This document shows, in pieces, positions 45,583-57,252 of a stretch of 64,000 bases of DNA (position 1 is the stretch's first letter; every line of letters begins with the position of its first letter). A program made the position numbers and the translations under genes. The notes below the pieces were generated by a model. The model was not told where the DNA came from and did not search any database. It was given only the letters and a program-made list of their open reading frames with translations. The DNA lies in NCBI GenBank assembly GCA_030652115.1, contig JAUSBK010000007.1, positions 372,001 through 436,000 on the forward strand, in the 5' to 3' direction. The DNA comes from Coriobacteriia bacterium. Lineage in GTDB: Bacteria > Actinomycetota > Coriobacteriia > Anaerosomatales > Anaerosomataceae.

Positions 45583-45600
45583 TTGTAACAATGTTTACAA
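45583..45600 (+). promoter_or_regulatory. Rex-like operator overlapping the nuo promoter
   Basis: TTGTAACAATGTTTACAA is an inverted repeat with half-sites TTGTAAC and TTTACAA around four bases, the same 7-4-7 layout as the NADH-sensing repressor Rex site (TTGTGAA-N4-TTCACAA). It starts right after the ABC-F stop and covers the -35 box of the promoter at 45594-45623, where a repressor would block polymerase. nuo operons are known Rex targets in Streptomyces. Assignment to Rex is inferred; the rex gene is not in the window. Confidence 0.55.
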
Positions 45601-53846: not shown

Positions 53847-55313
53847 GTGACGATCGCACTGCTCATCGTGATCCCCCTCGCCGGATGCCTCGCGGTGCTC
53901 GCATTCCGCTCTCCGCCGATGAACCGCGCTGTGGCCCTGGCGTCGACACTCGGTACGGCGGCGCTTGCCGCGCTCGCGGTGCGCGAGTACCTCGCGTCAG
54001 GTGCCCCCCTCACGTTCGCGTTGAGCGGAACCGTGGGTTCGTTCGTGCGCCTTTCGGCAGACGGCATCGCGCTGCCACTCGTGGCGTTGACCGCGGTACT
54101 GAGCGTGGTCGCGATCCTGGTGTCCTGGAATGCCGAGCGACTGAACGCGCACCTCGCCCTGCTGCTCGCGCTGGAGGCGGCCGTGCTGGCTGTATTTCTT
54201 GCCGCGGACCTGGTGCTGTTCTACGTGGCATGGGAGGCCGTGCTCATCCCGATGTTCTTCTTGATCGGGGGATGGGGACACGAGGGTCGCCGGCTGGCCG
54301 CGATGAAGTTCTTCGTCTACACCTTCGCGGGTAGCGCCCTGATGCTGATCGCGCTGGTGATCCTCGTGCTTGCTCAGGGCGGTCACGAGATGGTCCCGGC
54401 GGGCACCGTAGCGCTCGGTCCGCAGGAGCAACTCGTCTTCTGGCTTCTCGCCCTCGGCTTCCTGGTGAAGATCCCCGTGTGGCCGCTGCACACGTGGCTG
54501 CCCGATGCGCATGTTGAAGCCCCGACCTCCGGCTCGCTCATGCTGGCCGGCGTGCTGCTGAAGATGGGTGGCTACGGGATCCTGAGACTCTGCATCCCGT
54601 ACGCCCCGAACGCCTTCTCCGAGGCTGCTCCGCTGCTCGCGGTCCTCGGCGGGATCGGCATCGTGTACGGCGCGGCAGTTGCGTTGGGTCAGAGCGACCT
54701 TAAGCGCTTGGTCGCCTACTCGTCTGTGGCTCACATGGGCTTCGTGGTCCTCGGCCTGGCGAGCGGCACCGAACTTGGTATGCAGGGAGCGATGCTGGCC
54801 ATGGTGAGTCACGGCGTGGTCGCAGCACTGCTGTTCCTGCTGGTCGGAAGCTTGTACGACCGTTCGCACACGCGCGAGATGAGCGCGTTCGGCGGACTCG
54901 GCACATCAATGCCGAAGTGGGCGACGGTCTTCGTCTTCGCCTGTCTGGCGAGCCTTGGTCTTCCGGGGCTCTCCGGGTTCCCGGGCGAGTTTGCGGCGGT
55001 GACCGGCTCGTTCGTGCGCTTCGGCTGGCCCGTGGCGCTCGTGGGCCTGGGCGTGGTGCTTGCCGGCGCATACAACCTGCGTGCGATCCGCACCGTCGTG
55101 CATGGCGAACGCGCCGAGCCGGGCGCAGGTGGATCGCCGTCATCGGAGATGGGTGGCGCGAAGCACCTGTCGGATCTCGTGCCGAGGGAGCTGCTCGCCA
55201 TCGCGCCGCTGGCGATCCTCATCGTCTTGCTCGGGGTCTGGCCCCGCATCGTGACGGATCTCGCGGGATCATCCATAGCCGACCTTCTCGCGACGCTTGC
55301 AGGGGCGAGGTGA
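53847..55313 (+). CDS. nuoM: NADH-quinone oxidoreductase subunit M (antiporter-like)
   Basis: A 488-residue antiporter-like subunit. Motifs include LVLFYVAWEAVLIPMFFLIG, LGFLVKIPVWPLHTWLPDAH (conserved Lys), AHVEAPTSGSLMLAGVLLKM and QSDLKRLVAYSSVAHMGFVV, all characteristic of NuoM. GTG 53847 lies five bases after nuoL. It ends in a TGATG overlap with nuoN. Confidence 0.95.
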   Translation: MTIALLIVIPLAGCLAVLAFRSPPMNRAVALASTLGTAALAALAVREYLASGAPLTFALSGTVGSFVRLSADGIALPLVALTAVLSVVAILVSWNAERLNAHLALLLALEAAVLAVFLAADLVLFYVAWEAVLIPMFFLIGGWGHEGRRLAAMKFFVYTFAGSALMLIALVILVLAQGGHEMVPAGTVALGPQEQLVFWLLALGFLVKIPVWPLHTWLPDAHVEAPTSGSLMLAGVLLKMGGYGILRLCIPYAPNAFSEAAPLLAVLGGIGIVYGAAVALGQSDLKRLVAYSSVAHMGFVVLGLASGTELGMQGAMLAMVSHGVVAALLFLLVGSLYDRSHTREMSAFGGLGTSMPKWATVFVFACLASLGLPGLSGFPGEFAAVTGSFVRFGWPVALVGLGVVLAGAYNLRAIRTVVHGERAEPGAGGSPSSEMGGAKHLSDLVPRELLAIAPLAILIVLLGVWPRIVTDLAGSSIADLLATLAGAR

Positions 55314-56740
55314 TGGCAGTGCAGGTACCCCTCACACTCCTCGTGCCCGCGGCGATCGTGCTCGCAGGGCTGGTGGCGGCGCTGCTTGCCGACGCGTTCG
55401 AGCAGCGCTCGATCGCGCTGTGGCTGCTCGTGGCGTCGTTGCTTGGAGCCGCCCTCACTGCCGTCGTGATGAATCTCGACGCGTCTATGGTCGCGTCACC
55501 GGTCTTCACGGCCTCGGGCGGAGCTGTGGTCATCGGCGGGCTCGGCTACCTGCTGACTGCGGTCGCGATCGCCGCAGGGCATCGGCGCTTTGCCGGGCGT
55601 GCCCGGGGAGTGCCGATGGCGGCGCTCATGGCGCTCGGTGCGCTGTTCGCGGCCGCGCTCGCCGCCACGGTCGACCTGCTCGTGTTCGTCGTGTCGCTCT
55701 CCGGGATGGCGGTAGTCGCCTACGCGCTCGTAGCAGGCGCCGGTACGCGTCGTGCCGAGGAGTCCGCGGTGCGCTACTTCATCCAGGGCATGGTCGCAAG
55801 CGCTCTGACCGTCATAGGCGTCGCCTACCTGCTTGGAGCGGGTTCGGGCCTGACGGGATACGATGCGGTGCTCTCAGGTGTGGGGGTGGGAGAGGGGCGC
55901 GCGGTGCTCATGGCCCTGGGGCTCGTGACGGCAGTGCTCGCGTTCAAGGTGGGCGCTTTCCCGTTCCACTCATGGGTGCCCGATGCGTACGAGACCGCAG
56001 ATCCCCCCGTAGCGGCATACCTCGGCGCAGTACCGAAGATCGCCGGTGTGGTCGCGCTCACGGTGGTCACGCGGGTGACGCTCTTCGAAGCGGTGGACCC
56101 CGCGGCAACCACGGCCGTACTGACGGTGCTTGCGGTGGGCTCGCTGCTGTTCGGCGCGTTCGGGATGGTACGTCAACGTGCAGTGGGACGGATGTTGGGA
56201 TACTCGGCGATCGCTCAGGTGGGCTACGCGCTGACAGCTCTCGCGGCAGGAGCCGGAGGGATTGATGCTGCGGTCGTACACATCGTCATGTACGCGCTTG
56301 CCGCGTCCGCCGCGTTCGTGGGGCTCGAGGCGGTCCTGAGGGTTCGTCCCGAGTGGGACGGCTCGCTCGAGGGCTTGAGGGGGCTCTCGCGTGAGGCACC
56401 ACTGCTTGCCGCGTCGCTCGGCGTGGTGATGCTCTCGCTCACGGGCGTGCCGCTGCTGGCCGGCTTCTGGGGCAAGTTCGCGGTGCTTACCGCTGCCGTG
56501 GAGGCGGACATGGTGTGGCTCGCTCTTCTGGCGGGCGTCGCCGCGGTCGTGTCCTTCGGCGGGTACGGATCTGTCGTCCGGTCCCTGTACTTCGACGAAG
56601 CACCGGAGACGCCGGCGGAGAGACGATCCGGCGGACTGCCCGCGTGGGTGGCAGGCCTCCTTGCGGTCGTGCTCATCGTTCTTGGCATGCTTCCGCTTGC
56701 GCGCGGTCTGGACCCCTTGTTCGCGGCACTGGGTCTCTAA
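55313..56740 (+). CDS. nuoN: NADH-quinone oxidoreductase subunit N (antiporter-like)
   Basis: A 475-residue antiporter-like subunit, the last gene of the operon. Motifs: YFIQGMVASALTVIGVAYLL, LAFKVGAFPFHSWVPDAYET (NuoN-type), PPVAAYLGAVPKIAGVVAL and RQRAVGRMLGYSAIAQVGYA. No nuoE, nuoF or nuoG follows, so the operon encodes an 11-subunit complex. Confidence 0.94.
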   Translation: MAVQVPLTLLVPAAIVLAGLVAALLADAFEQRSIALWLLVASLLGAALTAVVMNLDASMVASPVFTASGGAVVIGGLGYLLTAVAIAAGHRRFAGRARGVPMAALMALGALFAAALAATVDLLVFVVSLSGMAVVAYALVAGAGTRRAEESAVRYFIQGMVASALTVIGVAYLLGAGSGLTGYDAVLSGVGVGEGRAVLMALGLVTAVLAFKVGAFPFHSWVPDAYETADPPVAAYLGAVPKIAGVVALTVVTRVTLFEAVDPAATTAVLTVLAVGSLLFGAFGMVRQRAVGRMLGYSAIAQVGYALTALAAGAGGIDAAVVHIVMYALAASAAFVGLEAVLRVRPEWDGSLEGLRGLSREAPLLAASLGVVMLSLTGVPLLAGFWGKFAVLTAAVEADMVWLALLAGVAAVVSFGGYGSVVRSLYFDEAPETPAERRSGGLPAWVAGLLAVVLIVLGMLPLARGLDPLFAALGL

Positions 56741-56778: not shown

Positions 56779-56796
56779 TTGTGAACGAGTTCACCC
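56779..56796 (+). promoter_or_regulatory. Rex-like operator downstream of the nuo operon
   Basis: TTGTGAACGAGTTCACCC has a perfect Rex left half (TTGTGAA), four spacer bases and a right half TTCACCC that matches TTCACAA at five of seven positions; the inner 14 bases GTGAACGAGTTCAC are a perfect palindrome. It abuts the -35 box at 56797. The site is the closest match to the Rex consensus in the window. Confidence 0.6.
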
Positions 56797-56825
56797 TTGC
56801 ATGAAGTATTCTTGGCTTGTATAGT
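56797..56825 (+). promoter_or_regulatory. Promoter of a candidate small RNA
   Basis: TTGCAT (56797-56802) and TATAGT (56820-56825) with an ideal 17-base spacer. Transcription would start near 56832, well past the nuoN stop at 56740. The Rex-like palindrome ends one base before the -35 box. Confidence 0.6.
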
Positions 56826-56831
56826 CATTTG

Positions 56832-56901
56832 AGTGAGTTGCTTCGGCAACCCCTTACCCCTGAGCCTCAAGGTGCCGGCCTTGAGGCTCTCCTTCCTTTT
56901 T
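56832..56901 (+). ncRNA. Candidate C-rich small RNA under Rex-like control
   Basis: The predicted transcript of about 70 bases has hairpin GTTGC-TTCG-GCAAC (56837-56850) with a UUCG tetraloop, a single-stranded C-rich stretch CCCCTTACCCCT (56850-56861) and then an 11-bp Rho-independent terminator. It contains no usable open frame. C-rich loops that pair with Shine-Dalgarno sequences under Rex control are known from RoxS/RsaE of Firmicutes, and this has the same logic without visible sequence homology. It could instead be a leader that attenuates the gene at 56971, or simply the nuo terminator. Confidence 0.45.
56862..56901 (+). terminator. Rho-independent terminator
   Basis: GAGCCTCAAGG (56862-56872) pairs perfectly with CCTTGAGGCTC (56879-56889) around TGCCGG, followed by TCCTTCC and five T (56897-56901). 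It is the best intrinsic terminator in the window. It would end the candidate small RNA and any read-through from nuoN. Confidence 0.85.
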
Positions 56902-56970
56902 GTGCGGGAAGTCACGGAGAGCGCCGTCCGTCATCCTGCCCCCCGCGTTTGGTAAAGCCAGCCGTCCACG

Positions 56971-57252
56971 ATGCCGATACTCACCCACGAGATGATGATT
57001 TCAGACGAGCAGGTACGGCGAGCCGTCGACTACCTGCGGAACTCAGATGAATACCCGGTTCCGGTCCGCGCAGACGCGGATCCCGCTGCGCTCGCACTCG
57101 TCGACAGGGTCGTCGAGGCGCTCCGCGAGATCCCGGATGTGCGTGAGGATCGGATCGCGCACGCCAGGGTGCTCGTTGACCAGGCGTTGCCGTCCTCCGA
57201 GGAACTGGCAAGCAAGCTTATCGGACGAGTGGTGTCGGACTCGATCCGCTAA
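56971..57252 (+). CDS. Small FlgM-like (anti-sigma-type) protein
   Basis: A 93-residue, mostly helical acidic protein. The C-terminal half IPDVREDRIAHARVLVDQAL followed by PSSEELASKLIG resembles the sigma-binding end of FlgM anti-sigma-28 factors (PDVREEKV...IAEKL). The N-terminal half MMISDEQVRRAVDYLRNSDE is unfamiliar. Starts at 56971, 56992 and 56995 are all possible; none has a strong ribosome site. No flagellar genes are nearby. It precedes the GspE/PilB gene. The assignment is tentative. Confidence 0.55.
   Translation: MPILTHEMMISDEQVRRAVDYLRNSDEYPVPVRADADPAALALVDRVVEALREIPDVREDRIAHARVLVDQALPSSEELASKLIGRVVSDSIR

Follow-up and report, generated by a model that had tools for sequence, protein, structure and literature searches.

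The window, the whole stretch of 64,000 nucleotides that was analysed, carries nuoN of complex I (54917..56740, + strand) and, behind it on the same strand, a 93-aa open reading frame designated orf93 (56971..57252, +). The assignment of nuoN is based on Pfam PF00361, on a match to NCBIfam TIGR01770 that stays below the cut-off of that model, and on synteny. Between the two genes, sequence reading and fixed offsets in relatives place a palindrome, TTGTGAACGAGTTCACCC (56779..56796, +), that is a putative Rex- or Crp-type operator and is centred ~45 bp 5' of the inferred RNA start. It is followed immediately by a promoter, TTGCAT-N17-TATAGT (56797..56825, +), with a -35 box TTGCAT at 56797-56802, a -10 box TATAGT at 56820-56825 and a spacer of 17 nt. 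Because the -35 box shares only three of six bases with TTGACA, the promoter is not flagged by a consensus scan; the pattern TTG[CA]-N16-18-TAnnnT is present in 44 of 53 loci of relatives.

Transcription from this promoter is predicted to yield a small RNA of ~70 nt (56832..56901, +, with estimated ends), an assignment that draws on a match to covariance model R1 (56835-56899), on the stability of the fold and on conservation. The RNA would begin with a 5' hairpin, GUUGC-UUCG-GCAAC (56837..56850, +), which is backed by compensatory changes in relatives. This hairpin is followed by a C-rich linker, CCCTTACCCCT (CCCUUACCCCU in RNA letters; 56851..56861, +), that was delimited in a 51-sequence alignment and is unpaired in the predicted fold, and then by a 3' stem-loop of near-invariant sequence, GAGCCUCAAGG-UGCCGG-CCUUGAGGCUC (56862..56889, +), with an 11/12-bp stem. 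A C/T-rich tail ending in T5 (56890..56901, +) is, from sequence reading, the presumed termination region. The core of the RNA contains CCTTACCCCTGAGCCTCAAGG, and the predicted transcript folds with z = -4.8, none of 200 shuffles being equally stable. The palindrome, the promoter with its 17-nt spacer, the UUCG hairpin, the C-rich linker and the stem are all found at the positions given in a preliminary description of this DNA.

Distribution and conservation of the RNA

When 221 bp of this region were used as a BLAST query, a match was obtained in 55 of 61 genomes from the genus, family and order, nearly always at the RNA element and typically over a 47-58-bp core with 90-100% identity. Covariance model R1, built from 51 sequences, was searched against 400 genomes of the class (69 in the order Anaerosomatales and 331 outside it) and 247 genomes of the phylum. 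The RNA was recovered in 60 of the 69 Anaerosomatales genomes, representing 15 of 16 families, with E values of 1e-11 to 3e-19, and no convincing match was obtained in the 331 other class genomes or the 247 phylum genomes. The sole weak match in the former set (genome G235) proved to be a plain terminator-like stem lacking the RNA core, and the sole weak match in the latter (G577) is partial; both were discarded. An exact 36-base pattern searched in 84,980 species genomes identified 46 contigs. By their titles, these come from Coriobacteriia, Anaerosomatales or more broadly designated actinobacteria, except for two (Aeromicrobium sp. and Slackia sp.) that appear to correspond to contigs of Anaerosomatales genomes. 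No copy of the RNA was found in the viral contigs and plasmids searched, Rfam returned no match at the gathering threshold or at E<=5, and a literature search found no regulatory RNA of Anaerosomatales.

Across the 51 aligned sequences, 34 columns are invariant; the linker UACCCCU and almost all of the 3' stem are among them. Conservation this close to perfect over 15 families speaks for a function that was fixed while neighbouring proteins diverged to ~40% identity, the value observed for NuoN. The local character of this conservation was assessed with 20-mers in 34 loci and the 4-8 kb around them. Certain 20-mers from the RNA are shared by 34 of 34 loci, a figure that is inflated because the loci were found through the RNA element itself; outside the RNA, coding sequence included, the most widespread 20-mer reaches at most 10 of 34 loci, a figure that is not inflated in this way.

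The 5' hairpin exists in two forms among relatives, one of 5 bp and, in other families, one of 7 bp. Within the 21 long-form sequences three pairs are changed on both sides, compared with none in slid controls, and in a divergent genome (locus L055) the hairpin at this place has an entirely different sequence. Nine of the 11 pairs of the 3' stem are constant in the 51 sequences, and the other two vary by wobble or on one side only. Covariation therefore backs the 5' hairpin and is silent on the 3' stem, since the latter hardly varies. A small open reading frame was also considered and was rejected on the variation pattern across relatives, as hairpin lengths differ by 4 nt, single C insertions occur and synonymous change is lacking, which rules out coding. 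From this pattern, the absence of an open frame noted earlier holds in substance. Conserved structure in relatives, the absence of which the preliminary description had taken as grounds for abandoning its proposal, is present order-wide according to the covariance model. As judged from sequence comparison, the element is in all likelihood a real and new small-RNA family, confined to the order Anaerosomatales of the class Coriobacteriia.

The promoter palindrome and Rex-type regulators

The Rex operator consensus of S. coelicolor is TGTGAACNNNTTCACA, and Streptomyces Rex sites span the -35 box at atpI and nuoA1 (PMC5355995). The palindrome TTGTGAACGAGTTCACCC agrees with TGTGAACNNNTTCACA at 12 of 13 specified bases and with TTGTGAANNNNTTCACAA at 12 of 14, and it is the sole match to TTGTGAANNNNTTCACAA with two or fewer mismatches in the 2.38-Mb genome, where the reversed control pattern also gives one. 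In relatives, a palindrome was called significant if its match to TTGTGAANNNNTTCACAA upstream of the RNA was better than that of 95% of shuffles (p<0.05 per locus). Significant palindromes were found in 26 of 53 genomes, compared with ~2.7 expected, and 19 of them were better than 99% of shuffles; the centres of most lie 9.5 or 14.5 nt upstream of the -35 box. About half of the RNA-bearing relatives are without the palindrome, and many of those do have Rex1.

Three Rex-type proteins are encoded in the genome. Rex1 (L103) contains PF06971 and PF02629 and scores above the NCBIfam NF003992 cut-off; both Rex1 and Rex2 pass NCBIfam Rex models, with best scores for NF003992 and NF003995, respectively. 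By its predicted domains and family matches, Rex1 is a true Rex and the actinobacterial-type paralogue. The genome holds, as would be expected of a Rex regulon, both an operator matching TTGTGAANNNNTTCACAA/TGTGAACNNNTTCACA and an actinobacterial-type Rex. The palindrome is present in 22 of 42 genomes with Rex1 versus 2 of 11 without detectable Rex1 (Fisher p = 0.09; p = 0.34 when collapsed by family), so that a loss of the palindrome tracking the loss of Rex1 is suggestive only. No operator of the RNA-palindrome type was found in rex1 upstream regions.

A different motif, TTGTAAC-N4-GTTACAA, occurs 11 times versus 2 in the control and is located upstream of nuo (45583), rex2, a molybdopterin-type oxidoreductase and SDR genes, the gene names at these sites resting on our reading of the sequences. 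Its copy in the interval separating the ABC-F gene from the nuo operon, TTGTAACAATGTTTACAA (45583..45600, +), is a near-perfect palindrome and a candidate Rex2 operator. The motif probably belongs to Rex2, and it is likewise probable that Rex2 controls nuo. Since the operator of the RNA differs from this nuo-type motif, Rex1 is the better candidate for the RNA. The recurrence of TTGTAAC-N4-GTTACAA outlines a second Rex-type regulon.

The same small RNA might instead be under the control of a Crp/Fnr-family protein that recognizes TGTGA-N6-TCACA, in which case it would report a cyclic nucleotide or some other signal. With one mismatch, TTGTGAACGAGTTCACCC fits that pattern, and in some relatives the site takes Crp-like versions, such as GTGTGATTCGAATCACGA (L048). 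A Crp protein of this genome combines a cNMP domain with a RETASR recognition helix that could read TGTGA, and in C. glutamicum the network reported for GlxR, a Crp-family regulator, includes the C-rich 6C RNA (PMC4046766). However, TGTGA-N6-TCACA is not enriched in the genome (30 occurrences versus 22 in the control), and the inner AAC...TT bases in the genus follow the Rex consensus. Crp typically activates from sites centred at -41.5 or -61.5, and the centres near -45 and -50 seen here are at neither position. On this balance we consider control by a Crp/Fnr-family protein unlikely. Tandem copies of TGTGACGCTTGTCACA and TGTGATGATAGTCACA, 6 bp apart at G000:C1:413045-413082, probably form a Crp-type operator pair.

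Control of the RNA promoter by Rex, which the preliminary description had proposed from the palindrome, is plausible. The palindrome recurs and fits the Streptomyces Rex operator, but roughly every second relative is without it and the motif at nuo and rex2 is a different one, so that Rex control of this promoter may be put at about even.

Linker, 3' stem and mode of action

As the linker is C-rich and is predicted to be unpaired, pairing with G-rich mRNA stretches is a natural guess for its function. The complement of the linker, allowing up to one mismatch, gave 5 non-self matches versus 5 in the control and so no excess, and AGGGGTAA near ATG was rare and unenriched. The start site of ppk2, AGAGGTAAGGGGTTGCGATG (L164:1501-2384; ribosome-binding site AGAGGTAAGGGGTTGC), is able in this genome to pair strongly with the RNA over 15 of 16 nt, with one mismatch. 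Relatives retain this site as a ribosome-binding site that overlaps the upstream stop codon, but not as a pairing site, and ppk2 was found in only 17 of 61 genomes. It was rejected as a conserved target, the pairing being unconserved and lineage-specific at best. For the expected pairing of the C-rich segment with ribosome-binding sites in the manner of RoxS, the seed searches gave no conserved target. An hdrA-like open reading frame in another genome (L218 of G027) has a ribosome-binding site, AAGGGGTAAGCATATG, that is complementary to the linker over 9 nt and constitutes a single lead.

The RNA could also bind a protein, or the ribosome or polymerase, through its invariant 3' stem-loop rather than act as an antisense molecule. 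In the 51 sequences, 9 of the 11 stem pairs keep the same bases in both arms even though termination needs only pairing, and the missing target signal for the linker in the seed searches would fit such a role. Against it, UACCCCU in the linker, which is predicted to be unpaired, is just as invariant, no known binding motif was recognized and Rfam offers no similarity; we regard this mode of action as doubtful. The sequence of the 3' stem nevertheless seems to be under selection, and its invariance is insufficiently explained by linker pairing or by termination alone. Why the sequence of a terminator-like hairpin should be so fixed is a testable question. Action by pairing through the linker, judged from these analyses, may be given somewhat less than an even chance.

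Of the strong intrinsic terminator previously described at this locus, the stem is present, but the T-run is set off from it. The T-run lies ~7-8 mostly C/T bases 3' of the stem, most relatives have 4-5 C at that place, and the common tail among them is CCCC(C)TTTT. With the T-run separated from the stem, the locus is not a textbook terminator, and because the U-tract follows 4-5 C rather than the stem directly, termination at this position is something that we infer. Behind the stem, at 56890-56920 and at the same place in relatives, CCCC-UUUU-NNN-GGGG is seen in about half of the loci. This may represent a third hairpin, whose loop would hold the U-run, although the statistics for it are weak.

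Gene context, proposed model and comparison with known systems

The order nuoN, RNA, orf93, pilB-like gene, phosphopentomutase and pyrimidine phosphorylase is widely kept among relatives. In one genome (locus L029 of G038) the RNA is inverted in place, with nuoN and orf93 on either side. Four further loci (L025, L031, L091 and L101) lack the nuo operon but keep the RNA and the remaining gene order, and in them the ABC-F gene that precedes nuo in the window is found directly or closely upstream of the RNA. These arrangements exclude nuo read-through and a nuo terminator, and they make a leader of orf93 very unlikely. A role of the RNA as leader or attenuator for orf93/pilB downstream would accord with the position of orf93, ~70-250 nt downstream on the same strand in most genomes; however, the RNA of L029 is directed away from orf93, the sequence between the stem and orf93 is unconserved and some loci have no orf93 match, which leaves this reading with very little probability. 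A decorated terminator of the nuo operon with no separate RNA, to which the position of the element might point, since in most genomes it follows nuoN on the same strand at a distance of 124 nt, was rejected and can practically be dismissed, since it is contradicted by the inverted locus and by the loci that keep the RNA without nuo, as well as by the RNA's own conserved promoter and invariant primary sequence. The orf93 product is conserved and ends in a FlgM-like helical stretch; its gene (56971-57252) usually adjoins the pilB-like gene, and searches of Pfam and NCBIfam gave no match.

Comparative evidence shows a conserved, structured, non-coding RNA that has its own promoter and 3' stem-loop and is predicted to be transcribed independently of nuo. 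An independent conserved unit with these features is what is expected of a trans-acting small RNA. Order-wide conservation, hairpin covariation, the conserved promoter and independence from nuo give strong support to the small RNA put forward in the preliminary description.

In the model that we propose for this RNA, a Rex-family sensor, most probably Rex1, would bind TGTGAAC-N3-TTCAC just upstream of the -35 box when NADH is low, thereby repressing the promoter. When NADH rises, Rex1 would release the operator and the RNA would be made, both in the genus of the window and in many other families. Once released, the RNA would act in trans via the invariant unpaired linker UUACCCCU between two protective hairpins, and pairing of this linker with G-rich mRNA stretches would adjust redox metabolism. 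Taken as a whole, an Anaerosomatales RNA family with a Rex1-repressed promoter and trans action by the linker is the best explanation and is, by a little, probably correct. A broader and more tentative possibility is that, in anaerobic Actinomycetota, this order-wide RNA relays the NADH signal from a dedicated Rex paralogue while the second paralogue, with another operator, runs complex I and other redox genes, which would amount to the logic of RoxS in Firmicutes, reached by independent origin with an unrelated RNA. Should Rex control be confirmed, C-rich RNAs under redox control would have evolved convergently in two phyla, and energy regulation could be approached directly in a subsurface lineage that is widespread but poorly cultured.

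The closest parallel in outline is RoxS/RsaE of Bacillus and Staphylococcus, likewise a small RNA with C-rich unpaired segments; it has a Rex site at its promoter (PMC5419742), where the Anaerosomatales RNA has a recurrent candidate site. The Anaerosomatales RNA has no sequence or Rfam match to that family and belongs to Actinomycetota rather than Bacillota. Its single C-rich linker contrasts with four C-rich regions in RoxS/RsaE, and its candidate site is upstream of the -35 box, whereas the Rex site of RoxS is just downstream of the start. Any resemblance to RoxS is limited to the outline, and the RNA falls outside the RoxS/RsaE family. The 6C RNA of Actinomycetales is also actinobacterial, of similar size and rich in cytosine runs, with a reported link to GlxR in C. 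glutamicum (PMC4046766). Its cytosines, about six each, are in two hairpin loops, whereas those of the Anaerosomatales RNA are in the linker and its loops are UUCG and UGCCGG; nor does the latter have an Rfam match to 6C. The Rex regulons of Streptomyces share with the present locus an operator, TGTGAACNNNTTCACA, near the -35 box and an actinobacterial-type Rex (PMC5355995). The targets described there are protein genes (such as nuo, cyd and atp; PMC5355995), whereas the candidate target here is a non-coding RNA, and nuo carries a motif other than the palindrome of the RNA.
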